Virus record (IMG/VR): IMGVR_UViG_3300023082_000010
Span: 1-64,000 of that record
Strand: one strand, 5' to 3'
Length of the DNA: 64,000 nt
DNA from: a virus
Shown: in pieces, positions 1 through 32,029 of the stretch
Layout: each line of letters opens with the position of its first letter
Position numbering within the stretch: the stretch's first letter is position 1
The notes under the pieces: generated by a model
What the model saw: the letters and a program-made list of their open reading frames with translations, nothing else
Told to the model about the DNA's origin: nothing
The model's database searches: none
Position numbers and translations under genes: made by a program

Positions 1-172
1 CAGACGGTTTTGTATAAAGATAGCCAGTCTTGATTTCCTCTTCCACGCCTTGGACAATCACTTTACAACGCTTGTCACCATCATAGTAGAGAATCTTAAC
101 CTCACGAATAGGTGCCTCTTCTCCTGAGATATCGCCTAAAGCTAGGATGGGATAGTCTGTATACGCCCGCAT
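1..172 (-). CDS. Hypothetical protein, 3' end outside window
   Basis: The frame is open from an ATG at 172 to the window edge, so at least 57 residues (starting MRAYTDYPILALGD) are encoded and the C-terminus is missing. AGGAAG lies six bases upstream of this ATG. An out-of-frame ATG at 177 sits too close to the same ribosome site to be used. Function is not recognised. It is the first gene after the promoter at 206-234. Confidence 0.7.
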   Translation of the reverse strand, partial: MRAYTDYPILALGDISGEEAPIREVKILYYDGDKRCKVIVQGVEEEIKTGYLYTKPS

Positions 173-205
173 TTCATTCTTCCTATATTTGGTTTGTATG
201 CTTGA

Positions 206-234
206 ATTCTAAGCAAAGAAAAGCCGCCTGTCAA
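206..234 (-). promoter_or_regulatory. Sigma70-type promoter nested in terminator
   Basis: TTGACA (229-234), 17-bp spacer, TAGAAT (206-211), reading leftwards into the gene at 1-172. The -35 box is the terminator loop and the spacer is its right arm and U-tract. Confidence 0.7.
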
Positions 235-242
235 GGGCGGCT
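214..242 (-). terminator. Rho-independent terminator, loop carries a -35 box
   Basis: On the minus strand a perfect 7-bp stem AGCCGCC/GGCGGCT encloses the loop CTTGACA and is followed by TTTCTTT. It ends the operon whose last gene stops at 259. The loop is also the -35 element of the next promoter. Confidence 0.8.
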
Positions 243-258
243 GTAGTAGTCTCTTCAA

Positions 259-636
259 TTATTTCTCATCGCTTGGAGCCAGAAACTTCTTGCAATCCTG
301 TGCAATGAGCGCTAGCAAATCACGCATCTCCATCAGATTGTCTGTCTTCTTACTTGCCAAATCAGCAATACCTTCCAAAAGTTCAATAGCGTCCTCAAGG
401 ATTTCTTTAGTGGACGACAGTTGTTCTGAATGGATCTTGTAAAGCTCCTCCGCCATCTCCCTGTAATCTTCAAAGGATATGTCTCTTTGTTCGGGATTTT
501 CTCCCTCTAAAACTGTTTGCTGAGCAACGAGAGGTGTTACCTTGTAATTGTTATCTTCAAGCGCCCACTCTATATTATCGCGAAGAAACAGTTCACGACC
601 TTGACACTCGATAAGGTAGCCTTTGACTTCAGACAT
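259..636 (-). CDS. Hypothetical protein, acidic, helical
   Basis: A 125-residue product beginning MSEVKGYLIECQG. It is rich in Glu, Asp and Leu, with a long predicted helical middle (about residues 55-110) that could form a coiled coil. No family was recognised. Its start lies 2 bp after the upstream gene's stop, so the two are probably co-transcribed from the promoter at 1031-1059. It is the last gene before the terminator at 214-242. Confidence 0.75.
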   Translation of the reverse strand: MSEVKGYLIECQGRELFLRDNIEWALEDNNYKVTPLVAQQTVLEGENPEQRDISFEDYREMAEELYKIHSEQLSSTKEILEDAIELLEGIADLASKKTDNLMEMRDLLALIAQDCKKFLAPSDEK

Positions 637-637
637 A

Positions 638-976
638 TTAGTTACTCCTTCTGATAGTCTTGAAGGCGTCTTTTAGAAAAGGTTTGATCCTTGACTTACC
701 ATCTCGTGTACGAATAGCCTTGTATCCGCCGCCATGTTCTTTATCAAGTTTAACAATCACACCAAGGTGATTGCCCATCTGATCGTACACATGACGCACA
801 CCACTTCCCGACAATTCGCTGAACCGACCTTTTACCACGTTAGACTGTGCCATCTCAATATTCTCCGATTGGTCGCACCTTGATTGGTGCTCATAAAAGT
901 GTTTAGGCAATTCTTTGTAAGCAATGGCTTTAGCGCCTTCATTGGTTCGGAAGAATCTCACTTCAACCTGTCTCAT
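638..976 (-). CDS. Hypothetical protein, basic
   Basis: A 112-residue product with many Lys and Arg residues, particularly at the C-terminus (DGKSRIKPFLKDAFKTIRRS), which could contact nucleic acid. The family is not recognised. It is first in its operon, about 55 nt downstream of the -10 box at 1031-1036. Confidence 0.75.
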   Translation of the reverse strand: MRQVEVRFFRTNEGAKAIAYKELPKHFYEHQSRCDQSENIEMAQSNVVKGRFSELSGSGVRHVYDQMGNHLGVIVKLDKEHGGGYKAIRTRDGKSRIKPFLKDAFKTIRRSN

Positions 977-1030
977 CCTTAGCTTTAGCAGCTTTGTGTT
1001 GGGACAGTGTTTCTGCTCTTCATGGGACTA

Positions 1031-1065
1031 AGAATACTGAATGTTGCAAGGCGTGTCAACACCTT
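1031..1065 (-). promoter_or_regulatory. Sigma70-type promoter with -35 in a hairpin loop
   Basis: TTGACA (1054-1059), 17-bp spacer, TATTCT (1031-1036) on the minus strand. The -35 is the loop of a short stem AAGGTG/CGCCTT (one G-U pair). Unlike the sites at 206 and 6246 there is no U-tract, so termination here is doubtful. Confidence 0.6.
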
Positions 1066-1127
1066 TAGCAGAGAATTTTGTAATTATTTTCTCTGCCTAT
1101 GGCTAGGAATGGTGAACTGCTTAGAAA

Positions 1128-1334
1128 TCAATCATGTATGACACAATGTGACCATATATCCTCTCCTTGGTCATCTTTTTCAAAAGAGAACTCGACAATG
1201 TGTGGCTCAGTCACCTCATATTCTAAGTCTCCAACCACCTCACCTACAGTACCATCTGTGTGTAGAATGAATGTCATAAACGGTGACTCTTTGATTTCTG
1301 TTCCATTTTCAAGTCTCATCACTCGATATCGCAT
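1128..1334 (-). CDS. Hypothetical protein
   Basis: A 68-residue product starting MRYRVMRLENGTEI, beta-rich and acidic at the C-terminus. GGAG lies seven bases before the ATG. No family recognised. It is the last gene before the promoter at 1031-1059. Confidence 0.65.
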   Translation of the reverse strand: MRYRVMRLENGTEIKESPFMTFILHTDGTVGEVVGDLEYEVTEPHIVEFSFEKDDQGEDIWSHCVIHD

Positions 1335-1355
1335 TGTGTATCTCCTTTCCTGTCA

Positions 1356-1421
1356 TTAAAGCGTGTCTAAGGCCATATCCTGCAAAGCCCTCTCACAACA
1401 TCTGTATCGGCTGTGAAACAC
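1356..1421 (-). CDS. Possible 21-residue peptide, GTG start
   Basis: A short open frame begins with GTG eight bases after the stop of the two-TM gene and ends at 1356. The peptide (MFHSRYRCCERALQDMALDT then L) has the composition of the small proteins around it. The ribosome site is weak. It could equally be a chance frame. Confidence 0.3.
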   Translation of the reverse strand: MFHSRYRCCERALQDMALDTL

Positions 1422-1427
1422 AAAGCT

Positions 1428-1658
1428 TTAGCTCTCTTTTTCTTTAGCCAGCATAATGTTTTGTGTCGTAGTGCTTGTCAAATAACCACCTACCAGAAGG
1501 TAGAGAATATTCTGATAGACCACTTGATCAATTTTACCTCCCCAAAGCAATCCTGTTGTAATAAGGATGCAACCAACACTCATCCAGAATTTACGCGATT
1601 GCCATTTAGTGGAAGTGTAGGGTGTTTCTGTGGCGACAGTGTCTGTTGAGTCTGTCAT
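1428..1658 (-). CDS. Small two-TM membrane protein, holin-like
   Basis: The 76-residue product has a polar N-terminus, then WQSRKFW before a first hydrophobic segment (about residues 26-43) and a second one (about 49-66), ending in a charged tail (AKEKES). This size and topology fit a class II holin or antiholin, or a small membrane protein that excludes competing phages. It lies far from the late lysis cassette, so an early role is more likely. AAGGA lies upstream of the ATG. Function is inferred from topology only. Confidence 0.6.
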   Translation of the reverse strand: MTDSTDTVATETPYTSTKWQSRKFWMSVGCILITTGLLWGGKIDQVVYQNILYLLVGGYLTSTTTQNIMLAKEKES

Positions 1659-1696
1659 TTTCTATTCCTTCTTCATATCCTAATAGGATTTATTAA

Positions 1697-1855
1697 TTAC
1701 ACATCTTTCCACTCTAAATAATCTTCCCAAGCCTCTGTCAATGTCTCTCCTAGCCCAAAGTAATCACAGCTATTAATGTCACGATATGGGCACACCATGT
1801 AGCCGGGAGTTGGTGTGTGGTCTTTAAGGAGCTTAGGTTCCCAGTTTTCTATACA
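1697..1855 (-). pseudogene. Startless protein-like frame (gene remnant?)
   Basis: An open minus-strand frame of 53 codons reads like a real protein: it includes LKDHTPTPGY, then MVCPYRDINSCDYFGLGETL, then TEAWEDYLEWKDV. It has no ATG, GTG or TTG near its beginning. A TAA lies just upstream (1856-1858), and the only ATG (1798) would give 33 residues without a ribosome site. Either the N-terminus was lost or an unusual start codon is used. Confidence 0.45.
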
Positions 1856-1886
1856 TTACACTTTGATTATGTGTGGCTTAGGATTG

Positions 1887-2162
1887 CTATACATAGCTCA
1901 CTTTCTCTGTCACCACTTGTTCAACTTTACGTGTCAAGCCTTCACAGCTGATATCACCATAACCCCATCCATTATCATAAGATGTTTCTACGCTCACTTC
2001 TGCATAAGTATCCCCATCAATTTTCTTTACATAGAAGTGGTCATATGTGTTTCGTTTATGAGGCTCTGATTCAAGATCATACTGTGTGTCAGGATCATAG
2101 CTGTTTTCATCACACCAATCACAAAACTGAGAATAACCATCAAAATTAAAAGGTGTGCTCAT
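1887..2162 (-). CDS. Hypothetical acidic protein
   Basis: A 91-residue product starting MSTPFNFDGYSQFCDWCDEN, rich in aromatic and acidic residues. I place the start at 2162 because GGAGAAG precedes this ATG at normal spacing, while the in-frame ATG at 2177 has no ribosome site. The ribosome site lies inside the end of the upstream gene, so translation is probably coupled. No family recognised. Confidence 0.7.
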   Translation of the reverse strand: MSTPFNFDGYSQFCDWCDENSYDPDTQYDLESEPHKRNTYDHFYVKKIDGDTYAEVSVETSYDNGWGYGDISCEGLTRKVEQVVTEKVSYV

Positions 2163-2163
2163 T

Positions 2164-2331
2164 TTAAACTTCTCCATCTACAAATTGTGATAGGAACCCA
2201 ATCAACTCAATAACATCATCACGAAACAGAACATTAGGGTAATCAGAATTAACATACAAAAGAATTTCATCTGAATCCTCGTACTTAAATTCTACTTCAT
2301 CACACGATCTTGATAGCATTAACTCTTTCAT
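2164..2331 (-). CDS. Small hypothetical protein
   Basis: A 55-residue product starting MKELMLSRSCDEVEFKYED, acidic. Its ATG overlaps the TGA of the upstream gene (GTATGA), and its end carries the ribosome site for the next gene. Such overlaps on both sides are the main evidence that it is real. Function unknown. Confidence 0.7.
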   Translation of the reverse strand: MKELMLSRSCDEVEFKYEDSDEILLYVNSDYPNVLFRDDVIELIGFLSQFVDGEV

Positions 2332-2594
2332 ACAAACTTATCCTTTGGAATGTCTTCAAACTTATTGGAGAATGATCCAATACTGTGCATGTATTCCCAA
2401 CTTACTTCCATCTGCTCTACAGATTCAATATGATGATTGTTAATTAGCTCAATCCAATCTTGCGTATGCAGGCTGTGGTTTTCTCCCCATAGTGTGTAAT
2501 TATCTTTACCATCTGACAAGAAGATTCCTGACCAGTCCCCATCGTCAGAATTTACTACAATCACTTTCTTATAAATCCGGCTGTCGTTGCTCAT
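2328..2594 (-). CDS. Hypothetical protein
   Basis: An 88-residue product starting MSNDSRIYKKVIVVNSDDGD, with a beta-strand-rich first half and an acidic end. GGAGATATTAA precedes the ATG. No family recognised. It is part of the chain of overlapping early genes. Confidence 0.7.
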   Translation of the reverse strand: MSNDSRIYKKVIVVNSDDGDWSGIFLSDGKDNYTLWGENHSLHTQDWIELINNHHIESVEQMEVSWEYMHSIGSFSNKFEDIPKDKFV

Positions 2595-2653
2595 TTAATA
2601 TCTCCAATGTCTTTACCACCATCACGAGTAAGAGGCTTATCATCCTCAAGCAT
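2591..2653 (-). CDS. Possible 20-residue leader-like peptide
   Basis: The frame starts at an ATG overlapping the end of the upstream gene and ends at a TGA overlapping the next ATG (AAATGA). The product is MLEDDKPLTRDGGKDIGDIK. It may be a real micro-gene or simply a translational coupler carrying the next ribosome site. Confidence 0.35.
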   Translation of the reverse strand: MLEDDKPLTRDGGKDIGDIK

Positions 2654-2822
2654 AACTGATGATAAGTTCAATTTGAATAACAAGCTTGCCTACATCATAA
2701 CAAGGCCCCTCTGTATTAGATCGGCTAAGTGCTTGTTGTAGGAGTTTCTTAATCTGTGCGTAATCCCAAGTCATCTCTCTATCCTCTCTCAACATCTCGT
2801 TAAATTCGTTCTGAAATGCCAT
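2646..2822 (-). CDS. Small hypothetical protein
   Basis: I take the ATG at 2822, giving 58 residues (MAFQNEFNEMLREDREMTWD and onward). An upstream in-frame ATG at 2903 would add a Trp/Cys-rich stretch that overlaps the previous gene and looks non-coding. No good ribosome site is seen, so the start is uncertain. Function unknown. Confidence 0.55.
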   Translation of the reverse strand: MAFQNEFNEMLREDREMTWDYAQIKKLLQQALSRSNTEGPCYDVGKLVIQIELIISYA

Positions 2823-2884
2823 ATTATCACGGTGTTTTAGGGGTGTAAAGCTGTTTAAAGAGATTGTTCGTCTCCCACAGCCTC

Positions 2885-3082
2885 TTAGCCAACAACACCA
2901 CACCCATCAATGAAATTAAGTAGATTAGAAAGCTTCTCAGCAGAGAGATTTTCCATATAATGACTCTCATCACCTTCAACATCTAGGCGAACGAATGTGT
3001 GAGAGAATGTGAGGCCAACAGATTCACATTCCTGAAGTGCGTTGATAAGTTTTTGTAGGCAAGCCATTTGTGTGTTGTTCAT
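2885..3082 (-). CDS. Small hypothetical protein
   Basis: A 65-residue product starting MNNTQMACLQKLINALQECE. Its start overlaps the stop of the upstream gene. It has an amphipathic first helix and an acidic middle. Family not recognised. Confidence 0.65.
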   Translation of the reverse strand: MNNTQMACLQKLINALQECESVGLTFSHTFVRLDVEGDESHYMENLSAEKLSNLLNFIDGCGVVG

Positions 3083-3303
3083 TTTAGGAGATCCTTTGTA
3101 TATTTTTCAATAGATTCTATTGCTGCTTTAATGTCAAAGTGAATCAACACAAGAGCCTCATCAATTGGTCCGTCTTCAAGAAGGTTGATGGCATCAGTTA
3201 GGCAGTCATGACATTCATCCAGAAGACTAATCTTTTCTTGTTTAAAGTGCGCTAGAAAAGACTCAACATCTTCCATTGTATATTGCTTGTGAAGATCAGT
3301 CAT
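3079..3303 (-). CDS. Small helical hypothetical protein
   Basis: A 74-residue product starting MTDLHKQYTMEDVESFLAHF, predicted almost entirely helical. The start at 3303 is chosen because GAGG lies seven bases upstream, inside the last codons of the DUF551 gene; a longer in-frame start at 3393 would run antiparallel to nothing coding and lacks a ribosome site. Function unknown. Confidence 0.65.
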   Translation of the reverse strand: MTDLHKQYTMEDVESFLAHFKQEKISLLDECHDCLTDAINLLEDGPIDEALVLIHFDIKAAIESIEKYTKDLLK

Positions 3304-3505
3304 TAGTTGGCCTCGGTTTATTAAGCTCTGTCCAGTGAGTAGGGCACTGTACTGCACAATATTCATCATTACTATCCAGAACCATAAACACATCGTCTTC
3401 TATGTAAGCAATTTCAATATTGGTATACCCAAAACTGTCAAAAGCAACAAGGTATTCTCCAACAGTGTCTGGCATCTTATCTGCACAGCGGTTCCAATTA
3501 ATCAT
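3296..3505 (-). CDS. DUF551-like small phage protein
   Basis: The 69-residue product has the signature of the DUF551 family: W...MP...G.YLVAFD near the start and a C-terminal PTHWTELNKPRP, matching the usual (V/C)THWMPLPEPP ending. DUF551 proteins are common in early or accessory regions of phages and prophages and have no established role. The gene abuts its upstream neighbour (stop 3506, start 3505) and overlaps the next one. Confidence 0.7.
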   Translation of the reverse strand: MINWNRCADKMPDTVGEYLVAFDSFGYTNIEIAYIEDDVFMVLDSNDEYCAVQCPTHWTELNKPRPTND

Positions 3506-3703
3506 TTATTCAACTCCTAAAATCAAGCTCATTGATGTCTGACGTGACTGCATCTGAGGGTCACAAAAACATACAGCTTCTGTAACAGACACTTCCTCAT
3601 CACCAAATGCACCATCTTCAGTTTGTGTACTGTTTTCAATAACACTTACTTCCAAGTGCTGTGGTTGTTTCTCAAGCCATTTAATAAATTGTGCTACGTT
3701 CAT
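3506..3703 (-). CDS. Small hypothetical protein
   Basis: A 65-residue product starting MNVAQFIKWLEKQPQHLEVS. The opening helix followed by a short strand (HLEVSVIE) resembles small phage proteins of unknown role. ATGA overlap with the upstream HTH gene shows coupling. Confidence 0.65.
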   Translation of the reverse strand: MNVAQFIKWLEKQPQHLEVSVIENSTQTEDGAFGDEEVSVTEAVCFCDPQMQSRQTSMSLILGVE

Positions 3704-3861
3704 TTCAAACTCTCCAATCTCTCACCAAGAATAATACGAGTATACACCTTATCACGATCAACACCAGTGATTTCAGCAATTTCTGACAAAGAAAATCCTT
3801 GCTCACGAAGCTTATAGCAGCGGATTGCTAAGTCTTGGCTGCGATTCTCTGAGGGCTTCAT
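3700..3861 (-). CDS. Small helix-turn-helix DNA-binding protein
   Basis: A 53-residue product (MKPSENRSQDLAIRCYKLRE and onward) whose core, LREQGFSLSEIAEITGVDRD, is a clear helix-turn-helix (about residues 18-45): first helix, the turn 'GFSLSEIAEITG', then recognition helix 'VDRDKVYTRI'. This is the layout of small MarR/Hin-like or transposase-type DNA-binding domains. GAGG precedes the ATG. It could be a local early regulator; the target is unknown. It lies in an operon chain with 4-bp overlaps. Confidence 0.7.
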   Translation of the reverse strand: MKPSENRSQDLAIRCYKLREQGFSLSEIAEITGVDRDKVYTRIILGERLESLK

Positions 3862-3862
3862 T

Positions 3863-4057
3863 TTAATCCTCCCTCACAACTTTAAATTCACTGATAAGAG
3901 TGAAATCAGGAATATGTTCACCGTTATAGATCATTCTCCATGTTCCATCAGCAAGCTCATCCAAGTGAATCATACGCTGTTTAGTGCGAACAGCTGTCAC
4001 TTTGGATAATTCTAGCACAATACCAGTGCCAGTCAATTCGATTGCTCTGCGTGTCAT
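3863..4057 (-). CDS. Small hypothetical protein
   Basis: A 64-residue, beta-rich product starting MTRRAIELTGTGIVLELSKV. GGAG lies just inside the end of the upstream micro-gene. Its spacing to the HTH gene (1 bp) places both in one transcript. Function unknown. Confidence 0.65.
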   Translation of the reverse strand: MTRRAIELTGTGIVLELSKVTAVRTKQRMIHLDELADGTWRMIYNGEHIPDFTLISEFKVVRED

Positions 4058-4058
4058 C

Positions 4059-4148
4059 TCAATACTCCAAATCTAGGCTGTTAATGTCAAATTCACTCTC
4101 ACGAATATACCCCACATCGGTGAGGTTTACAACAAAATTTTCAATCAT
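4059..4148 (-). CDS. Possible 29-residue peptide
   Basis: The ATG at 4148 overlaps the TGA of the helicase-like gene (AATGATTGA), and the frame runs to 4059. The peptide (MIENFVVNLTDVGYIRESEF and onward) is acidic, and its end carries the ribosome site for the next gene. Coupling on both sides argues it is translated, but its size makes this uncertain. Confidence 0.45.
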   Translation of the reverse strand: MIENFVVNLTDVGYIRESEFDINSLDLEY

Positions 4149-5379
4149 TTGTAAGCCAGTCCTGAAAGAGCTTACGCATACGTTTTGACAAAATGCAAAT
4201 CTTAATTGGCTTTCCGTCACGAATTTGTGAACGCCATACAAATTGTACAAGCTCAGACAATGCAAACTGATTATTGTCAACATCCACACCATAATCTTGT
4301 AGGAATGAGGAAACAGAAACATGAGTAAAACGGTTATAAGCATGCACCAATACAGAACGATCACGATAAGCGTTTGTTGCTCTTGCTGTACAGGCTAGGA
4401 AGCATCCTTGTGCAATACCATCCTCATCAATCTCGCCATCTCCTGCACTATATCCTCTAGGTGAAACCTTTCTTGCACCTGAACGTGTCTGGTTAACAAG
4501 TGTAGACGGTACACACCAAACAAGATCAGTATTCTTAGCTTTGTTAGCATCACCAATAGCACGAATAGATTTACCAATAGCTGTCAAATCTTTCTGTGTA
4601 GCTTTTGAATACCAACTAGACGATAAAGATTCACCAGCCCACTCTTTAACTTGCTTATCTCCAACAAATTCAATCAAAGGAAAAAGGTTCGATTTACTCT
4701 GTTCATTAAGCTTTACCTCTGTAAAGTCAACAACTTCAACCCCTTTAAGTTTAAGGAATGAAGACATAATACTGCCTTTAAAAAGGTAAGTAAGAACAAT
4801 AACTCTTTCTGCTGAATGTATCAAACCAATAGGCAACTGAGTAACAAACATACTATCACTGCGTTTAGCCTGATAAATCATTCCAAGCTTACACATATTC
4901 GCAAGTTTAGTGTATTTAGCACCATCTTTAATCTCATCATTAAGCCAAACTAAACATCCATCTTCTTCAACCCTAATCTGTTTCAAATCTTTAAGGTAAT
5001 CAAAGTCAGACTTAGTGTAACCAGCATTCAGAGGTTCAATAAAACTTACTTCTTCATCAAGTATAAGTGTATATTTGTTTTGTTTAATCCAAAAAAGATG
5101 TGGTTGTTTAAGACTTGAATAAAGAGAGTGTGTAATACTAATATTAACACCAGACTGTAACAAGTCTAGTAAGTGCTCGCCCTTAGTGTCGAACTCTTCT
5201 GTACTAGGTGCAATGAATTTAGATTGAACACAAAAAGCTACAACCCTACCTTCACTCTCACTTAACAAAGGAGTAACATAAATGAATGGAGTAGTAGGGT
5301 TCGCTTCACACCACTTAAGAATAGAAGTAGTTTTACCACTACCCATTAGCTTATCTAAAACCTCAATCTTAAAGGTCAT
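4141..5379 (-). CDS. SF2-like helicase/ATPase, paralog A
   Basis: The 412-residue product has a Walker A motif (MGSGKTT, about residues 12-18), a Walker B-type LILDEE (about 106-111), and a C-terminal QFVWRSQIR that fits motif VI with an arginine finger. This is the outline of a superfamily 2 helicase or translocase. It is a full-length paralog of the 412-residue gene at 27518-28756, with conserved landmarks such as TKGEHLL, ITHSLYSSL/FTHSLFTDL, VLTYLF and LQDYG. The early-strand position suggests an early role (origin opening, host takeover or recombination). Substrate and polarity cannot be told from the sequence. It starts about 45 nt below the promoter-terminator element at 5425-5458. Confidence 0.75.
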   Translation of the reverse strand: MTFKIEVLDKLMGSGKTTSILKWCEANPTTPFIYVTPLLSESEGRVVAFCVQSKFIAPSTEEFDTKGEHLLDLLQSGVNISITHSLYSSLKQPHLFWIKQNKYTLILDEEVSFIEPLNAGYTKSDFDYLKDLKQIRVEEDGCLVWLNDEIKDGAKYTKLANMCKLGMIYQAKRSDSMFVTQLPIGLIHSAERVIVLTYLFKGSIMSSFLKLKGVEVVDFTEVKLNEQSKSNLFPLIEFVGDKQVKEWAGESLSSSWYSKATQKDLTAIGKSIRAIGDANKAKNTDLVWCVPSTLVNQTRSGARKVSPRGYSAGDGEIDEDGIAQGCFLACTARATNAYRDRSVLVHAYNRFTHVSVSSFLQDYGVDVDNNQFALSELVQFVWRSQIRDGKPIKICILSKRMRKLFQDWLTND

Positions 5380-5424
5380 ATTTTTTAAAAACCTCTCTTT
5401 CTTAGATACTTCTTTTCTTTAAGG

Positions 5425-5458
5425 ACTGAAACACACAAACCCTTATAAATCAAGGGTT
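5425..5458 (-). promoter_or_regulatory. Terminator-promoter composite (weaker)
   Basis: On the minus strand AACCCTT/AAGGGTT encloses GATTTAT and is followed by TGTGTGTTTC. TTGATT (5448-5453) overlaps stem and loop, and TTCAGT (5425-5430) lies 17 bp downstream. The promoter score is poor, but the plan matches the elements at 206-242 and 6246-6281, and it sits exactly between the gene ending at 5476 and the helicase start at 5379. Confidence 0.5.
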
Positions 5459-5475
5459 GTAGAGGTGTTTTACAA

Positions 5476-5664
5476 TCATTTCTCGACAGTGTTAGTCGAG
5501 TCTAAATTAAACATATCTAAGTAGCTATGGAAAGTGTTTATGTAATCTTCGTATGTTTCATGGTCAATCCATTCCCAATTACCTTTAGGATATTCATAAC
5601 CAACAGAAAGACATTTTTTATCACCTTTATATTCTTGAAATTGCTGTTTTGTGTAAGCAGCCAT
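5476..5664 (-). CDS. Small hypothetical protein
   Basis: A 62-residue product starting MAAYTKQQFQEYKGDKKCLS. The opening 'MAAYTKQQFQEYK' resembles 'MMAYTQQQYAELES' inside the product of 6288-6608, hinting at a shared short module. The function is unknown. The start overlaps the stop of the upstream gene by one base. Confidence 0.65.
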   Translation of the reverse strand: MAAYTKQQFQEYKGDKKCLSVGYEYPKGNWEWIDHETYEDYINTFHSYLDMFNLDSTNTVEK

Positions 5665-5849
5665 TATATGTTCTCCGAAGATGGAACTACTTTACAAGTG
5701 TATATAGTGTATTCATAATCAGAATTCTTTAATTCAAATGAGCGTTTGTCTAAGTTTGCATCTTTCGATGATTCGTAAAAAGCAACAGTTTCTTCTGTTG
5801 TCTCAAAACTGTATCGTACCCACTTGTTTAGTTGATATATTACTTTCAT
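5664..5849 (-). CDS. Small hypothetical protein
   Basis: A 61-residue product starting MKVIYQLNKWVRYSFETTEE, with alternating strands. It overlaps its upstream neighbour by 4 bp. No family recognised. Confidence 0.65.
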   Translation of the reverse strand: MKVIYQLNKWVRYSFETTEETVAFYESSKDANLDKRSFELKNSDYEYTIYTCKVVPSSENI

Positions 5850-6058
5850 TTTACAACCTCAGAATTAACAAAACCGTTAACTATCTGCCTGTGTTGGACA
5901 ACGTACATCAAGGGCTCAACATTCCCAACTCTTGCAAACAATCCATAATTCTCTTTCAAAAAGTCATCAGAAGGAATTCTTTCAGAATAAATATAAGAGT
6001 GCGTTCCGATAGGAACAAGAACTTCAATCTGGTAGCAGACAACTTCCTCGTCAACCAT
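5846..6058 (-). CDS. Small hypothetical protein
   Basis: A 70-residue product starting MVDEEVVCYQIEVLVPIGTH. AAGGAGG precedes the ATG, within the last codons of the upstream gene. Function unknown. Confidence 0.7.
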   Translation of the reverse strand: MVDEEVVCYQIEVLVPIGTHSYIYSERIPSDDFLKENYGLFARVGNVEPLMYVVQHRQIVNGFVNSEVVK

Positions 6059-6212
6059 TTAATACCTCCTTGATTTTACCATAAGACAAACCGACTTCCA
6101 GGATAAGACCAAGCATATCGGTGTTACCAGCTTCACGATACTCTCTCATCAGTTCAATAGTGATTCGGTCTGTCTCATAGCTCTTACCGTTAGCTTCAAA
6201 TGTGTAGGTCAT
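6051..6212 (-). CDS. Small hypothetical protein
   Basis: A 53-residue product starting MTYTFEANGKSYETDRITIE and ending in GLSYGKIKEVLNG. It overlaps the next start by 8 bp and carries its AAGGAGG ribosome site. It is the first gene after the promoter at 6246-6274. Confidence 0.7.
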   Translation of the reverse strand: MTYTFEANGKSYETDRITIELMREYREAGNTDMLGLILEVGLSYGKIKEVLNG

Positions 6213-6245
6213 GATCTTGATTCCGTGTTTGTCTTTGATGTGTTG

Positions 6246-6281
6246 ATTCTAGGGCAAAACAAAACCCCAGTCAAGGGTTTT
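6246..6281 (-). promoter_or_regulatory. Terminator-promoter composite
   Basis: On the minus strand a perfect AAAACCC/GGGTTTT stem (6261-6267 and 6275-6281) with a 7-nt loop containing TTGACT is followed by GTTTTG. The same TTGACT (6269-6274) is the -35 box of a promoter with a 17-bp spacer and TAGAAT (6246-6251). It ends the operon whose last gene stops at 6288 and starts the next one. Confidence 0.7.
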
Positions 6282-6287
6282 GTAAAA

Positions 6288-6608
6288 TTATTCATCATCT
6301 GTCAGCCCTCTAACGCCCTTGATCGGACCATACTTCTCAAAGCCACCTGCACCTAAAACACAGTCTAAATAGTCACTACCTGTTCCTGTGTAAGCTGGCT
6401 CGTCAAGGCCCTTAGAGTTTACGCCTGCCTCTAGCATAACAATCTGATATTTAAGATCACAGATAGTCTGTTCATGTTTATAGCAAAGTTGTCGCCAACT
6501 GTTACAACGACTTTCAAGTTCTGCATATTGCTGTTGTGTGTAAGCCATCATCCCTTCACCCGTTTCTTCACGAAGTTTGCGAACATCTTCAGCAGTGATT
6601 TGTTTCAT
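6288..6608 (-). CDS. Hypothetical protein, coiled-coil
   Basis: A 106-residue product starting MKQITAEDVRKLREETGEGM, with helical residues 1-60 and a Gly-rich acidic C-terminus. The start at 6608 is preferred over 6620 because GGAG lies six bases upstream. The first 15 residues (ITAEDVRKLREETG) resemble the opening of elongation factor Ts UBA-like helices, but the match is short and I infer nothing from it. Confidence 0.65.
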   Translation of the reverse strand: MKQITAEDVRKLREETGEGMMAYTQQQYAELESRCNSWRQLCYKHEQTICDLKYQIVMLEAGVNSKGLDEPAYTGTGSDYLDCVLGAGGFEKYGPIKGVRGLTDDE

Positions 6609-6907
6609 TCTGTTCTCCATTCAACTTCCATGCCTTCCCCACAAAGAAATGCTAGCACATAATCGGCAAATTCTTTATCCTGAATAAGTTCATTCCAGTT
6701 GTTTCTGTAGCGCTTCGTGCAGTTATCCAGAAGGTTGTAGGCCCTGCTTTGGCTGCCCATGCACATCCTAAAGAAAAGCTCACCACTGTGATTTCGCTGT
6801 TGTTTGTGGAAATCATTGCCTAAAGTGTCGTGTTCTGCAAGGTTATCTGCAATCTTCTTAGCCAGAGCTTCATATTGGTCATCATCTAATGTCTCTAAAT
6901 AAGTCAT
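6605..6907 (-). CDS. Hypothetical protein
   Basis: A 100-residue helical product starting MTYLETLDDDQYEALAKKIA. A strong AAGGAGG site lies eight bases before the ATG. It is the first gene leftward of the divergent promoter region, so probably among the earliest expressed. Function unknown. Confidence 0.75.
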   Translation of the reverse strand: MTYLETLDDDQYEALAKKIADNLAEHDTLGNDFHKQQRNHSGELFFRMCMGSQSRAYNLLDNCTKRYRNNWNELIQDKEFADYVLAFLCGEGMEVEWRTE

Positions 6908-6941
6908 ATCTACAACCTCCTTCCAATAAAATGTGTAGCCA

Positions 6942-6971
6942 AGTATGCCCCACCCAAATCACCCCTGTCAA
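6942..6971 (-). promoter_or_regulatory. Leftward promoter of the divergent region
   Basis: TTGACA (6966-6971), 18-bp spacer, CATACT (6942-6947) on the minus strand. CATACT also occurs as -10 at 25665-25670. The predicted transcript starts about 30 nt before the gene ending its 5' side at 6907. Confidence 0.6.
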
Positions 6972-7026
6972 CACCTCATCCCCAAGCCCCTCAAAAATAA
7001 TTCTCTAAATTTTCCTCCACATCCCC

Positions 7027-7055
7027 TTGCATTGTGTAAAGGTGTGTGCGAATAT
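7027..7055 (+). promoter_or_regulatory. Candidate rightward promoter (weak)
   Basis: TTGCAT (7027-7032), 17-bp spacer, GAATAT (7050-7055). The -10 match is poor. It is the best plus-strand candidate in the 6908-7122 gene-free region that must start the long rightward block. Confidence 0.35.
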
Positions 7056-7122
7056 GGCTCTCGTAAGCAAATAGACAAGAAGGCTGGACGAATGGACAGC
7101 CTATCACATGAGGGGAAGAGAG

Positions 7123-7263
7123 ATGAGTAACGTTCAGAAGCTCGGTTGGGATGCAGCTATGCAAGGTAAGACTTATGAAGACTGCCCCTACCCCGAAGAC
7201 ACTGTTGGTTGGGTCGCTTGGACAAAAGGCTTCTTTAACGGTTTGTCTTGGCTTGAAGCTTGA
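7123..7263 (+). CDS. Ribosome modulation factor (RMF)-like protein
   Basis: The 46-residue product contains LGWDAAMQGKTYEDCPYPED followed by a Trp-rich AWTKGFFNG. The pattern G-(W/Y)-x-A-x3-G-x5-CPY...W..G matches bacterial RMF, the small protein that binds the 30S subunit near the anti-Shine-Dalgarno and promotes 100S dimers. A phage copy at the head of the rightward block could pause or redirect host translation. AGGGGAAG precedes the ATG. The match rests on a short motif, so the role is inferred. Confidence 0.65.
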   Translation: MSNVQKLGWDAAMQGKTYEDCPYPEDTVGWVAWTKGFFNGLSWLEA

Positions 7264-7320
7264 CACCCACCTACACGTCTGCTATCTTCCTGACTGTACA
7301 GGCGTGACGTAAGACGTGTA
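7260..7320 (+). promoter_or_regulatory. Rightward promoter within an inverted repeat
   Basis: TTGACA (7260-7265), 17-bp spacer, TATCTT (7283-7288). A perfect 9-bp inverted repeat TACACGTCT (7272-7280) / AGACGTGTA (7312-7320) brackets the -10 and the start site. This could be an operator or an mRNA hairpin. A second small hairpin GGCGA/TCGCC lies at 7346-7359. Confidence 0.6.
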
Positions 7321-7383
7321 AAACATTATTAATTGTGCAATTTAGGGCGAGATGTCGCCTTTGCGAATGGAGAGGTAAAATAA

Positions 7384-7563
7384 ATGACTAGTTATATTAA
7401 TTATGGTCAAATGTCCAGCCTTGAGCGCCATGTGTTTCAATCCACTGGTGAGTGTGATAAACAGTTTCATATGGGCGAGAGTGAATTTAATCAGATGATT
7501 GATGAAATGGTGCATAAGCAAGTTATGCAACAGCAGGAAGAATTGATTGAGGAGGAAGTGTGA
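7384..7563 (+). CDS. Small hypothetical protein
   Basis: A 59-residue, Gln/Glu/Met-rich product starting MTSYINYGQMSSLERHVFQS, with a C-terminal helix ending EELIEEEV. It overlaps the next gene (TGATG). Function unknown. Confidence 0.65.
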   Translation: MTSYINYGQMSSLERHVFQSTGECDKQFHMGESEFNQMIDEMVHKQVMQQQEELIEEEV

Positions 7564-7790
7564 TGGAAACTTTTTATATTGTCTGTGGATGGGACAACTA
7601 TTATCCCGATGCTGGTATTGGTAACATTAAGCTAGTGACCTTCGATGAGAATGAAGCCAAAGCTTATGTAGAAGAACAAATGAAACTTGAAAAATATGAT
7701 CGTTGTAATCAGTTTAAAATCTACACAAGTGACCAGTTGCCGTGGGGTGGATCAGATTATGTTAGCCCAGATTATTCTGGATCAGTATAG
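7563..7790 (+). CDS. Small hypothetical protein
   Basis: A 75-residue product starting METFYIVCGWDNYYPDAGIG. The ATG at 7563 overlaps the previous stop, and GAGGAGGAAG lies upstream. The pattern (strand, helix with DENEAKAYVEEQMK, strand) resembles small proteins annotated as DUFs in phages. Function unknown. Confidence 0.65.
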   Translation: METFYIVCGWDNYYPDAGIGNIKLVTFDENEAKAYVEEQMKLEKYDRCNQFKIYTSDQLPWGGSDYVSPDYSGSV

Positions 7791-8019
7791 GCTCGATATA
7801 GAATACAGCTATGAGAGCGGTGATCAGTATCACTGCCTAGATTGGATTGATCTATCAGTGCTCTCTGGCACAATTTGTCTAGAAGGGTCGCATAGCTGCT
7901 CTCATGGCTGTGAAGAATATGTTGACATGACAGATGATGAGCTGTATTTTGTTGGGGAGATGTTTGGGAATGACATTGAAAAGAAATTATTGGAGGATTT
8001 GAGAGATGAGTTACCTTAA
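7759..8019 (+). CDS. Hypothetical acidic protein
   Basis: An 86-residue product starting MLAQIILDQYRLDIEYSYES. The start at 7759 follows GGGGTGG at good spacing; a farther in-frame start at 7687 would overlap most of the previous gene. It has a Cys/His cluster (GSHSCSHGCEEY) that could bind a metal. Function unknown. Confidence 0.6.
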   Translation: MLAQIILDQYRLDIEYSYESGDQYHCLDWIDLSVLSGTICLEGSHSCSHGCEEYVDMTDDELYFVGEMFGNDIEKKLLEDLRDELP

Positions 8020-13530: not shown

Positions 13531-13593
13531 AATAAAAGCTTGATTTATAAAATTAGGTTTGTTATTATTCTAAAGAGGAGCGTGTTAATAAAA

Positions 13594-14118
13594 ATGAAAA
13601 TTTTAGATGTAGAGTTTTTAAAAGATAGATTTGATTATGATCCTGAAACTGGTAAACTATTTTGGAAAGAAATTAATCAAATAAATACAAATCTTAGAAG
13701 AAGTCAGTTCGCTGGAAAAGAAGCTGGTTATGAGTATCAAGGTTATATTTATGTCCGAATCGGGAAAAGTAACTATTTATCACATAGGATTTGTTATGCC
13801 ATTTACAACGAGGAATTTCCAAAAGGTATTATAGATCATATTGATGGTAATAAGAAAAATAATAAAATTGAAAACTTAAGGGTTTGCACTCCGGCAGAGA
13901 ATGCTAAAAACGCAAAAAGATATTTGACTAATAAATCAGGAATAACAGGAGTTAGGTGGGATAAAAAAGATAACGCGTGGAGAGTTCAAATAGGTAGCAA
14001 TGATGGAAAAGTGCAAAAATCTTTTCATGATTTCTTTGAGGCTTGTTGCTTTAGGAAGTCAATGGAATTAAAATTAGAATATTCATTAAATCATGGTACA
14101 GACAGAGAAGGTAAATAA
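13594..14118 (+). CDS. HNH homing endonuclease with AP2-like domain
   Basis: A free-standing mobile endonuclease of about 174 residues. An HNH core is visible in YLSHRICYAIYN...GIIDHIDGNKKNN...LRVCTPAENAKN, followed by an AP2-like DNA-binding region (SGITGVRWDKKDNAWRVQI). This architecture is known from homing endonucleases that copy themselves into sites in related phages. The gene is more A+T-rich than the polymerase gene before it, a sign of transfer. The ATG at 13594 is chosen; GAGGAG lies 14 bases upstream, and a GTG at 13582 is an alternative start. Confidence 0.85.
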   Translation: MKILDVEFLKDRFDYDPETGKLFWKEINQINTNLRRSQFAGKEAGYEYQGYIYVRIGKSNYLSHRICYAIYNEEFPKGIIDHIDGNKKNNKIENLRVCTPAENAKNAKRYLTNKSGITGVRWDKKDNAWRVQIGSNDGKVQKSFHDFFEACCFRKSMELKLEYSLNHGTDREGK

Positions 14119-15114: not shown

Positions 15115-15627
15115 ATGGAATGTAAGAATTGTGGTCTTGAAAAAGACCCTTCTCTTTTCTACAACGGAATCAAGTCTGAGTGTAAGGAATGTGTTAAGGC
15201 TAGAACCAAACGTAATAGGAAAGAGAAAGAAGAGTATTATAAAGAGTACGATCGTAACAGACCAAATGCTACAGAAAGGTCAAAGAAACAAAGTTTTAAA
15301 GTTTGGGAACGAGTAAAGAAAGATGAGGAATTTAAAGAAAGAATCTTTAAAACTAAATCTGATTGGGCAAAAAGGAATCAAGAAAAACGTAAAGCTCAAT
15401 ATGCCATTAGTAATGGACTTCGTGATGGTTATGTGGTTAGGGCAGATTCTTGTGAACACTGTGGAACTTCTGAAAAGAAAATCCAAGGTCATCATTGGTC
15501 TTACTTGCCTGAACATTGGCTAGACGTTATTTGGCTTTGTACAAGCTGCCACGGTAAAGAACACAAACGTTTAAACGAACTGGGACGTGATCCCGACAAT
15601 CAAATTAAAGAGGAAAATGTAGCATGA
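15115..15627 (+). CDS. HNH endonuclease with N-terminal zinc ribbon
   Basis: A 170-residue product with CKNCG...CKECVKA at the N-terminus (two CxxC knuckles), a very Lys/Arg-rich helical middle, and a C-terminal CEHCG...GHHWSYLPEHW...LCTSCHGKEH. This is an HNH core with two further CxxC pairs, as in mobile HNH nucleases. It lies directly behind the SSB gene and overlaps the next start. Likely a free-standing homing endonuclease. Confidence 0.8.
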   Translation: MECKNCGLEKDPSLFYNGIKSECKECVKARTKRNRKEKEEYYKEYDRNRPNATERSKKQSFKVWERVKKDEEFKERIFKTKSDWAKRNQEKRKAQYAISNGLRDGYVVRADSCEHCGTSEKKIQGHHWSYLPEHWLDVIWLCTSCHGKEHKRLNELGRDPDNQIKEENVA

Positions 15628-18877: not shown

Positions 18878-19942
18878 ATGGTCTATTATTTGGCAAGTCC
18901 GTATAGCGTAGATGCTGATTACGAGCTGATGAGACTTCGTTATAAATGTGTCATGAAAAAGACAGCAGAACTTACACGGGAAGGTTTTGCAGTTTTTAGC
19001 CCCATTGTAAATTCACATATATTGTCAACTCGTTACGCCATGCCTACCACTTTTGATTTTTGGGCGAAGATTGATTACGAATTTATCGCTGTCTGTTCTG
19101 AGGTTTGGGTGTATAAGATGGACGGATGGGAAGATTCAGTAGGCGTGCAAAAGGAAATAGAGTATGCACAAAGCTTAGGAAAGACAGTAAAATATATTGA
19201 GTGCGAAGATAGTCCTCCAGCGAGAGCATATAAAGCCCGTATGAAAGACATTTCAAAAAGTAAGCCTTTGTATGGTGTTGGTATCAACGATGTTTGGTAC
19301 AGCCCCACCCAAGTTAAGAGAGTTTCAGAAGGAAGGGGGCAAGGGTGCTTTAAAGCAATTTGGCACTGTATAGTCTATCAACGCTGGGCAAATACCTTGA
19401 AACGGTGCTATGATGAGAAAAATCTTTTACTGGCGCCGAGCTATGAGGGTTGCACCATGGTTGAAGAGTGGCATTCATTTAGTAATTTTAAAGCTTGGCA
19501 TGATATTAATTTTGTCCCAGAATGGCACTTGGATAAAGATATCCTGAAGGATAATAACAAGATATACGGCCCTGACAGTTGCGTATTCGTTCCCGTCTAT
19601 TTGAATCAAATACTGGCGGTAAATACATCAGGTAAATGCTTGCCCGGAGTTAACAAAAGAGTTGAAAAGTGGAGAACAAAGCCTTACCATGTATCCCATG
19701 AGTTTGGCTCCATTGTAAAACGTAAAGATTTCGCTACAGAAGAAGAAGCCCACGGTTGGTGGTGTGAACAACGCGCAGAATCAATTCGTTGGAAGCTGCG
19801 TAAATATAACCTCGATGAGCGTGGAATGCATAAAGAAACTGTTACAGAAAGGCTTGAAGCTTTAGCAAAAAGATTGGTAGAATTGAAATCTTGGGACAAA
19901 GCATATAATTACAGCGAAAACATTGCAGACAAAGTGGCTTAG
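18878..19942 (+). CDS. DUF1937 domain fused to homing-endonuclease-like module
   Basis: The 354-residue product has two parts. Residues about 1-112 (YYLASPYSVDADYE, then GFAVFSPIVNSH, W.KIDYEFIA.C.E) match DUF1937, a nucleoside deoxyribosyltransferase-like fold found in phages, fitting its place in a nucleotide operon. Residues about 125-330 match the endonuclease family at 21817, 31493 and 56297 (YGVGIND, RW.NTLKRCY, PSYEGCTMVEEW, HLDKDILKDNNKIY). Neither part is known to need the other. GGAGG precedes the ATG. This may be a mobile endonuclease captured at the 3' end of a metabolic gene. Confidence 0.75.
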   Translation: MVYYLASPYSVDADYELMRLRYKCVMKKTAELTREGFAVFSPIVNSHILSTRYAMPTTFDFWAKIDYEFIAVCSEVWVYKMDGWEDSVGVQKEIEYAQSLGKTVKYIECEDSPPARAYKARMKDISKSKPLYGVGINDVWYSPTQVKRVSEGRGQGCFKAIWHCIVYQRWANTLKRCYDEKNLLLAPSYEGCTMVEEWHSFSNFKAWHDINFVPEWHLDKDILKDNNKIYGPDSCVFVPVYLNQILAVNTSGKCLPGVNKRVEKWRTKPYHVSHEFGSIVKRKDFATEEEAHGWWCEQRAESIRWKLRKYNLDERGMHKETVTERLEALAKRLVELKSWDKAYNYSENIADKVA

Positions 19943-21816: not shown

Positions 21817-22554
21817 ATGAAAGTTGGCGACATCTACACCAATAAGTTCGGAGAAACATTTAAAGTGGTGGAGAAAACCACCAGTAAAAATGTCGTCGTA
21901 GAGTTTTGTGATGCGTATAAAGGCAGGACAACTACTCAAAAAGTACATATTCTCAGGGGCGCTGTTAGGAACCCTTTTGCTAGAAACTTATACGGTGTAG
22001 GTTATCTTGGACAAACAACAAAAGACAAATCACCAACAAGTAACCCTGAATATATTCGAGCTTACAGTGCTTGGTGTGGTATTATGGAAAGGTGTTACAA
22101 TAAAAATTTCCAAGAAATTCATCCCTCTTACGTAGGTTGTTATGTAAAAGAAACTTGGCATTGTTTCATGGTATTTGCCGAATGGTATATTGAGAATTCA
22201 ATTCTGAATTGGGATTTAGATAAAGATATTTTAGTAGTGGGTAACCGTGAGTATGGTCCTGAGACTTGTTTGTTTCTACCGCGTCACATTAATAATCTTT
22301 TTCACAAAAATGAGGGTCATAAGGAATCTGAATTGCCTGTAGGTGTTACACTCGCAAAGTCAGGTAAATACAGGGCAAGACTTTCAGAAAAAGGTTTTAG
22401 AAAACATTTAGGATACTATTTTACTCCTGAAGAAGCTCACCAAGTATACCGAGAAGCTAAGGTTGAATATGTACGGAAGGTTGCTTTTGATCATAAAGAA
22501 AATCTTCACCCTAAAGCATTTGAATTGTTAAGTAATTGGAGTTATATTGAATGA
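21817..22554 (+). CDS. Homing-endonuclease-like protein (family copy C)
   Basis: The 245-residue product has an N-terminal SH3/KOW-like part (about 1-55), the shared family core (LYGVGYLGQ, IMERCYNKNF, PSYVGCYVKETW, WDLDKDILVVGNREY, about 63-165) and a C-terminal AP2-like DNA-binding part (ELPVGVTLAKSGKYRARLSE...LGYYFTPEEAHQ). It is related to the products at 31493 and 56297 and to the C-terminus of 18878. It lies between small genes and nrdB, in the same direction. The catalytic residues are not certain from sequence alone. Confidence 0.7.
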   Translation: MKVGDIYTNKFGETFKVVEKTTSKNVVVEFCDAYKGRTTTQKVHILRGAVRNPFARNLYGVGYLGQTTKDKSPTSNPEYIRAYSAWCGIMERCYNKNFQEIHPSYVGCYVKETWHCFMVFAEWYIENSILNWDLDKDILVVGNREYGPETCLFLPRHINNLFHKNEGHKESELPVGVTLAKSGKYRARLSEKGFRKHLGYYFTPEEAHQVYREAKVEYVRKVAFDHKENLHPKAFELLSNWSYIE

Positions 22555-27517: not shown

Positions 27518-28756
27518 ATGAAAACTAAGATTGAACTTCTAGACTCAATCATGGGTAGCGGAAAGACACAAGGTGTAATTCAGTGGATGCTTAATAACCC
27601 ACAGAATAAATACTTGTACGTCTCACCAATGCTTACAGAAGTAGAACAAAGGATTCCTGAAGCTTGTCGCTCTCTAGAGTTTGTATACCCTTGCACAGAA
27701 GAATATAAAACCAAAGGAGAACACCTTCTAAAGTTGTTAGAAGAAGGCTGTAATGTTTCTTTTACACACTCCCTGTTCACTGATTTGACAAAGAAACATC
27801 TTGCACTAATCAAGAAACATGAATATATTCTTATTGTGGATGAGGAAGTTGCTCTGATAGAGCCATACAAAGGTATTTATGATCGTGATGATATTCTGTC
27901 TCTTGAGAAAGCTGGACACATTAAAGTGTTAGAAAATGACCTTGGTCGTGTAGAGTGGCTTTGGTATAATGATGATGAGATGAACAAGACTGTATACAGC
28001 AAGCTTAAACGTATGTGTGATTTAGGTATGCTGTATTGTGCTAAACGTGATCGTAAGATTATGGTTGTGCATCTTCCTATTGAGCTTGTGCAGTCTTCAA
28101 GACGTGTTGTACTTCTTACATACTTGTTTGAAGGTTCTGTTATGGAAGCCTTTATGAAACTTAAAGGTATTGATATAGTTCCATTTAAGGATGTAAAACC
28201 TATTAAAGAAACAAAAGATGTGCTTGCTAAGGCTAAAAGCCTGATTACATTTATTGATACACCATCTAGTAAGGCTGTAGCTAAACTTTCTATGTCTGCT
28301 ACTTGGTATGCAAAGAATGCCTCAGCAACAGATTTAGAAAAGATTAAGAATGCTCTTTTCTCTGTTTATAGGAAATATGGAGATAAAGATTTATTTTTGT
28401 TTACAGCACCTAAAACACAAGCTTGTTTGGAATACATAAAGAAAGAAGATATCACAAGGCACATCTTGCATAAGAATCTACCTAAAGATTTAGACTGGAT
28501 TTATTGTGGAACTAAAGCAACTAACATCTGGGCACATAAAACTATAGCTGTACATGCTTACAATAGGTATGTAAATACAGCTATTAAAGCATATTTACAA
28601 GATTATGGTACACCACCAAATGATGATAAATTTGCGTTGTCTGAGATGGTACAGTGGATATATAGAACACAAATCAGGAATGATAAACCAATATCTTTGT
28701 GTATTATGAGTGCTAGAATGAAGAAGCTTTTATGTAATTGGTTAGATAGTAAATAG
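27518..28756 (+). CDS. SF2-like helicase/ATPase, paralog B
   Basis: A 412-residue paralog of the gene at 4141-5379. Walker A is IMGSGKT (about 12-17), Walker B is ILIVDEE (about 106-112) and the motif VI region is QWIYRTQIR. It lacks the Gly/Ser-rich insert (SPRGYSAGDGEIDEDG) of paralog A. It is the last gene of the rightward block, abutting its neighbour without a gap. The role is probably nucleic acid unwinding or remodelling during replication, recombination or transcription; the exact job is not shown by the sequence. Confidence 0.75.
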   Translation: MKTKIELLDSIMGSGKTQGVIQWMLNNPQNKYLYVSPMLTEVEQRIPEACRSLEFVYPCTEEYKTKGEHLLKLLEEGCNVSFTHSLFTDLTKKHLALIKKHEYILIVDEEVALIEPYKGIYDRDDILSLEKAGHIKVLENDLGRVEWLWYNDDEMNKTVYSKLKRMCDLGMLYCAKRDRKIMVVHLPIELVQSSRRVVLLTYLFEGSVMEAFMKLKGIDIVPFKDVKPIKETKDVLAKAKSLITFIDTPSSKAVAKLSMSATWYAKNASATDLEKIKNALFSVYRKYGDKDLFLFTAPKTQACLEYIKKEDITRHILHKNLPKDLDWIYCGTKATNIWAHKTIAVHAYNRYVNTAIKAYLQDYGTPPNDDKFALSEMVQWIYRTQIRNDKPISLCIMSARMKKLLCNWLDSK

Positions 28757-31492: not shown

Positions 31493-32029
31493 ATGAAGTT
31501 AGTTTATGGTGTGGGTATAAATGATGCTGATTACACCCTCAGTAAATATGAAAAATTTGTCAGCGCGGAGGGCTTATTGAAGGTTCGTCAGGTATGGGTT
31601 TGTCCTTTTTATTCGAGATGGCAATCCATGATTACTCGCTGTTACAGTAAGAATTTTCTTATAGAGAATCCATCCTACAAAGATTGTACCGTCTGTGAGG
31701 AATGGTTAACTTTTAGTAAATTTAAATCTTGGATGGAGACGCAGAATTGGAGTGGTAAGACCCTTGATAAAGATATATTGTGTAAAGGCAATAAAATTTA
31801 CTCTCCCGAATTTTGTGTTTTTGTTCATGCCAAAGTAAATCTTTTTATCATTGAACGTGAGAGTAAACGTGGTGAATGGCCTATTGGTGTTCACTTTGAA
31901 GAGAGCTACCAAAAGTATAAATCCACAATAACTTCTAACAATAAGACTGTAAACTTAGGTAGGTATGATACAGCTGAGCAAGCCCATCAAGCTTGGTTGG
32001 ACTTTAAGCTTGATGGGCTTATATACTAG
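31493..32029 (+). CDS. Homing-endonuclease-like protein (family copy B), frameshifted end
   Basis: A 178-residue product on the strand opposite to all neighbouring late genes. It has the family core (LVYGVGINDADYT, SRWQSMITRCYSKNF, NPSYKDCTVCEEW, LDKDILCKGNKIYSPEFC) and the AP2-like end (WPIGVHFEESYQKYKSTITS ... TAEQAHQAW). It stops at 32029, but the -1 frame continues with a protein-like tail (about LASEQEDDRVAKALVERYKN) to 32100, so a one-base deletion has probably shortened it. AAGGTG precedes the ATG. The insertion splits the holin from the endolysin. Confidence 0.7.
   Translation: MKLVYGVGINDADYTLSKYEKFVSAEGLLKVRQVWVCPFYSRWQSMITRCYSKNFLIENPSYKDCTVCEEWLTFSKFKSWMETQNWSGKTLDKDILCKGNKIYSPEFCVFVHAKVNLFIIERESKRGEWPIGVHFEESYQKYKSTITSNNKTVNLGRYDTAEQAHQAWLDFKLDGLIY

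Follow-up and report, generated by a model that had tools for sequence, protein, structure and literature searches.

Can one short stretch of DNA end one operon as a terminator and open the next as a promoter? The question is raised by two minus-strand elements, at 242-206 (element A) and 6283-6246 (element B), in the window, i.e. the whole 64,000-nt stretch analyzed here, which comprises bases 1-64000 of a 92,420-bp IMG/VR phage record (G000). The record encodes a Mu-type portal, a capsid E family protein, a terminase and a DnaG/DnaB-type primase-helicase; the portal, capsid protein and primase-helicase place it outside the T4-like phages. Its DNA polymerase shows 45-48% identity to those of cultured relatives among the Pseudomonas, Acinetobacter and Rheinheimera phages, and most of its IMG/VR contig relatives are at 82-97%. 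No DNA-level match to window positions 1-8000 was found among cultured phages. Many small ORFs occupy the minus strand at the left end of the record; we infer that they are early genes and that this strand is expressed early. The phage presumably uses the host polymerase.

Some features of the wider gene content were observed in passing. Three paralogous proteins of ∼412 aa with a GSGKT motif are encoded by this one phage (window 4141-5379, minus strand; window 27518-28756, plus strand; L016 1400-2692), with identities of 40% and 27%, and the first of them (4141-5379) is without a Pfam match. Homing endonuclease look-alikes (HNH, AP2-type or GIY-YIG) were recognized by eye at window positions 13540-14118, 15115-15627, 18878-19942, 21817-22554, 31493-32029, 47113-47898 and 56297-57034.

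Element A reads AGCCGCC(CTTGACA)GGCGGCT TTTCTTTGCT TAGAAT on the minus strand from 242 to 206, and has the following parts and neighbors:

259..636, minus strand: upstream gene, 125 aa, with its stop codon ∼17 nt before the hairpin
222..242, minus strand: intrinsic-terminator hairpin by RNA fold (left arm 242-236, loop CTTGACA 235-229, right arm 228-222)
229..234, minus strand: -35 box TTGACA within the terminator loop, from the sequence
212..221, minus strand: U-tract TTTCTTTGCT, making up most of the promoter spacer as well, from the sequence
206..211, minus strand: -10 box TAGAAT at a 17-bp spacer, from the sequence
2..172, minus strand: downstream gene, 57 aa seen, cut by the record end

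The RNA hairpin folds at -12.7 kcal/mol (z -3.6, RNA fold), and the promoter scores 11/12 with a spacer of 17. Judging from the spacing, the predicted start is the A at 199, within a CAT initiator, and the ATG follows 39 nt past the start of the -10 box. In its exact form the element is rare, the pattern GCC(CTTGACA)GGC being found in 3 IMG/VR stretches, none of them with a -10 box.

Element B, on the minus strand from 6283 to 6246, can be written as ACAAAACCCT/TGACT/GGGGTTTTGT TTTGCCC TAGAAT or, with a wider loop, as ACAAAACCC(TTGACTG)GGGTTTTGT TTTGCCC TAGAAT:

6288..6620, minus strand: upstream gene, 110 aa, with its stop codon ∼5 nt before the hairpin
6259..6283, minus strand: intrinsic-terminator hairpin by RNA fold, 10-pair stem, -35 box located in the loop and at its edge
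6269..6274, minus strand: -35 box TTGACT, from the sequence
6246..6251, minus strand: -10 box TAGAAT at a 17-bp spacer, from the sequence
6051..6212, minus strand: downstream gene, 53 aa

Here the hairpin folds at -13.1 kcal/mol (z -3.9, RNA fold), with a U-tract that is weak when the full 10-bp stem forms. The promoter scores 10/12 at spacer 17, the start predicted from spacing is the A at 6239 within CAT, and the ATG is once more 39 nt past the start of the -10 box.

The preliminary description had seen the same plan at four sites. It stands for elements A and B and fell for the other two, which are listed below:

5438..5458, minus strand: terminator-like hairpin with TTGATT in the loop, not composite
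1031..1059, minus strand: promoter-like TTGACA-17-TATTCT with its -35 box in a weak hairpin, not composite

The hexamer at 17-bp spacing in 5425-5458 is TTCAGT, which leaves this site without a -10 box. The site at 1031-1065 was rejected both as a terminator and as a composite because its hairpin is not followed by a T-run (U-tract); moreover, the hairpin holding the -35 box has a z of -1.95 and is weaker than those of elements A and B. Fusion had also been taken for the rule among the early genes of this phage, and that generalization was not borne out: of the 20 terminators predicted in the 92-kb record only 2 are fused, as are only 2 of its 30 promoter-like sites that score 10/12 or better. 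On the sequence, the two composite sites have real terminator and promoter anatomy, and fusion is a minority design.

We consider it very probable that elements A and B are composite cassettes of an intrinsic terminator and a sigma70 promoter, located at operon boundaries on a strand of early type. A polymerase coming from the upstream gene would transcribe the hairpin and release its RNA in the U-tract. The host sigma70 holoenzyme would bind the same DNA, finding its -35 box in the loop and its -10 box immediately after the U-tract, and the next transcript would start some 15 bp (12-16 bp) beyond the release point. Since it would begin after the hairpin, the new transcript would be exempt from the terminator, and the outcome would be an insulated boundary at which stop and start codon lie less than ∼120 nt apart. 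The layout of the two elements suggests that termination and initiation take place in vivo and that compactness with insulation has probably been selected.

Promoter-like hexamers could also overlap with terminators by chance in an AT-rich genome. As a class, promoter-like sites in the region are indeed near the shuffled level (48 vs 51), and the failure of two of the four reported sites points the same way, whereas the shuffle, spacer, offset and initiator tests all contradict this reading. A composite scan of the whole record found 2 sites against a mean of 0.05 and a maximum of 1 in 20 dinucleotide shuffles, a difference whose significance the shuffle test alone overstates, because terminators are scarcer in the shuffles (9.4, vs 20 in the genome itself). 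The same test gave 5 composites vs 0 in the relatives G001-G007, 6 vs 0 in Staphylococcus phage K and 11 vs 0 in a 167-kb IMG/VR phage, counts that are not independent, as the fused sites of the relatives are partly homologous cassettes and the copies in the 167-kb phage are near-identical.

The spacer profile and the offset test weigh more as controls, because of the lower number of terminators in the shuffles. For the spacer profile, IMG/VR was scanned with the pattern CCCC(TTGACN)GGGGNTTT (in short, CCCC(TTGACN)GGGG+T), chosen without requiring a -10 box. Among 72 distinct sites of this hairpin, a -10 box matching 5/6 or better is at spacer 17 in 22 and at spacer 16 in 5, with ∼0.5 per other spacer. 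When a -10 box was demanded at spacer 17, the pattern gave 24 matches in 22 IMG/VR stretches, and the control pattern with the -10 box at spacer 13 gave none. A second stem family, GCCG(CTTGA)CGGC, has a -10 box at spacer 17 in 9 of 33 distinct sites. The offset test covered 667 predicted terminators from 21 phage sequences, some of them partial. Promoter-like sites scoring at least 10/12 peak where the -35 box is at the hairpin centre, with 25 sites in the central 9-nt bin, 15 in the preceding bin and 1 to 6 in each bin further upstream. Finally, of 44 fused sites with spacer 17, 16 have CAT precisely where the start is expected, compared with 0 of 59 unfused sites. Relatives and repeated copies are among the sites in these sets, and their counts are likewise not independent. 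Chance overlap, which the spacer profile already contradicts, was rejected as highly improbable.

Recurrence with changed stems is seen among the relatives of the phage. Eight fused sites were found in G001, G002, G006 and G007, all with spacer 17 and with differing stem sequences; two of the eight have a weaker -35 box, TTGCGG or TTGCGC. Across G000 and these relatives, the upstream stop codon is located ∼5-35 nt before the hairpin and the start codon 68-82 nt after the first base of the hairpin. The elements AAAAGGCC(CTTGC)GGCCTTTT of G001 and ACAGGCCG(CTTGA)CGGCCTGT of G006 precede orthologous genes and differ in their stems, and such retention of pairing with changed sequence points to an RNA hairpin rather than an operator. 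Operators often take the form of a dyad over the -35 box, and this match is what would favor interpreting the inverted repeat as a repressor site instead of a terminator. A single operator, however, would keep its sequence and not its pairing, and here the stems differ between the two sites and among the relatives with pairing kept, a T-run follows, and a stop codon lies just upstream. On these grounds we rejected an operator as very improbable.

The fused sites of the relatives align with one another over only ∼33-69 nt, and their flanks are unrelated. In a gene region that is 87% identical between G000 and G006, the fused element is present in G006 and an ordinary unfused promoter in G000, with the similarity ending right before the start codon (L026 16971-16899, L016 4738); this comparison is the one clear case in which an element may mark the boundary of an exchanged gene. 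Together with the 11 near-identical copies in the 167-kb phage, these observations favor a recombination cassette resembling promoter-early stem-loops (PeSLs), in which the element would be mainly a short shared sequence for swapping early genes. The two copies in G000, however, differ in stem and share little sequence and would be poor substrates, and a role in exchange does not conflict with promoter and terminator functions. We regard this reading as possible but less likely than not.

A different, self-exempting design was observed before related genes in two relatives (L021 ∼6364-6300, minus strand, and L023 upstream of 3593, minus strand). There, a long hairpin includes the -10 box in its left arm, and its right arm and T-run fall in the 5' leader (AAGCCCCTAGAA...TTCTAGGGGCTTTT). 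With only the rest of the hairpin in the leader, the complete hairpin could form only in read-through RNA.

According to the preliminary description, upstream traffic might cover the embedded promoter and give a built-in choice between the two operons. A polymerase elongating through the hairpin or terminating there would necessarily cover the DNA from the -35 to the -10 box, but termination would remove it exactly at the hairpin. Most other or early terminators of the relatives have TTCG or other loops, and some of them have a promoter 30-60 nt beyond; such unfused boundaries of the same kind suggest that fusion is unnecessary for a boundary. The two operons would also have to be alternatives, and an occlusion switch seems quite unlikely.

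Under polymerase recycling, the enzyme would stay on the DNA after release, regain sigma and restart at the embedded promoter a few bp away, and transcription of the upstream operon would in this way feed the downstream one. Single-molecule experiments in vitro show that E. coli RNA polymerase, having terminated at an intrinsic site, can remain on the DNA and reinitiate at whichever promoter is nearest (PMC6978380, PMC6978322, PMC11347151); in the elements, the release point would precede the predicted start site by ∼12-16 bp. The recycling work also includes the argument that there is little benefit in it for lytic phages that bring an RNA polymerase of their own, and we view such a relay as doubtful. 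It is likewise unlikely that fusion is a hand-off device as such, in which the release point would be set atop the next promoter and the host polymerase recycled from one early operon into the next. If it were, three geometries, one with a loop-embedded -35 box, one with this box in the left arm and one with the hairpin inside the spacer, would have arisen in unrelated phages for operon coupling and not for space alone. Occlusion, recycling and recombinational exchange are extensions compatible with the composite terminator-promoter reading; in sequence, a switch, simple insulation and recycling would look alike.

That the same bases serve as RNA hairpin and DNA -35 box, with the U-tract as spacer, was the core of the preliminary description, and it is well supported at the two sites, in the relatives and in unrelated phages. 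Loop-embedded composites are also present in Staphylococcus phage K, Pseudomonas phage VCM, Serratia phage BF and PAK_P3. Phage K has at least six of them, two of which are one element in the terminal repeats (for example, AACCACCTAT(TGAC)ATAGGTGGTT TTTTATGC TATAGT). The 167-kb phage, from the isolate-type record IMGVR_UViG_2706795891 (167,619 bp; L042, L043, L047, L170-L178), carries its 11 copies, of the AAAGCCCCTTGACAGGGGCTTTTTTCATTGGTAGAAT type, before different genes, and the stretch tested had no DNA match to cultured phages. The composite pattern also occurs in some bacterial contigs (L118-L139), mostly Clostridia, and about half of these occurrences extend to full U-tract terminators. 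In RaK2, KVP40 and BF, TTGAC is in the 5' arm and not in the loop (AAAGGGTTGAC(TACG)GTCAGCCCTTT); RaK2 has 14 composites vs 0.25 in shuffles. Among 95 distinct sites of this 5'-arm geometry, the -10 box is at spacer 17 in 37 and at spacer 18 in another 37. In RB49 the whole hairpin lies in the spacer, TTGACA GGGGATCggtGATCCCC TATAAT, without a U-tract. The same scan found no composites in phiPMW, T4 and Barba1A, and at most one, close to the shuffle level, in rV5 and FelixO1.

With these results, the range of composite promoter-terminator cassettes widens beyond T4-like phages to several unrelated ones and perhaps to the genomes of bacteria. Standard annotation treats such a geometry as two separate features. 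At ∼40 bp, the elements would be natural minimal operon insulators, and they offer an in vivo setting for asking whether polymerase recycling after termination matters. Phage K, for which RNA-seq is published, makes the proposal testable without new phage isolation.

As intrinsic terminators, elements A and B have a G+C-rich stem, a short loop and a U-tract (weak in element B) after a stop codon; as sigma70 promoters, they have both hexamers, the spacing, an initiator and a nearby start codon. The left-arm composites of KVP40, RaK2 and Serratia phage BF are likewise fused terminator-promoters, and any T-run after their stem falls in the spacer, but TTGAC belongs to the 5' arm there and to the loop in A and B. 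A further possible parallel is the E. coli frd terminator/ampC attenuator, in which the terminator of one operon overlaps expression signals of the following operon; the promoter there precedes the hairpin, which attenuates the transcript made from it, whereas the transcript from A or B would escape the hairpin. The early promoters of Staphylococcus phage K share the loop-embedded -35 box, although the phage is an unrelated Gram-positive one. The published RNA-seq papers on phage K and its relative 515A1 give promoters and terminators, in passages that make no mention of their overlap. Phrase searches of the literature did not turn up a passage directly describing a -35 box within the loop of a terminator, a geometry that the PeSL papers may already show.

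The nearest known systems are the PeSLs of T4-like phages, reportedly described as composite promoter-terminator cassettes by Arbiol et al. 2010 (doi 10.1093/gbe/evq006) and by Comeau et al. 2014 (doi 10.1093/gbe/evu129), the latter under the title 'Composite conserved promoter-terminator motifs'. Like PeSLs, elements A and B combine a strong sigma70-type early promoter with a terminator hairpin between small early genes in a cassette-like manner. They have sigma70-like -35 and -10 boxes at the ∼17-bp spacing (11/12 and 10/12, spacer 17), and stem-loop and promoter form one unit, as the hairpin loop contains the -35 box. PeSLs are known from T4-like phages, and G000 is not one. In RB49 the PeSL hairpin is within the spacer, whereas A and B have a loop-embedded -35 box and use the U-tract as spacer. 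Several near-identical copies, a further mark of PeSLs, are found in the 167-kb phage but not in G000, with its two copies of unlike stems. Compared with PeSLs, elements A and B may be considered PeSL-like and only partly new, set apart by phage lineage, hairpin position and copy similarity.
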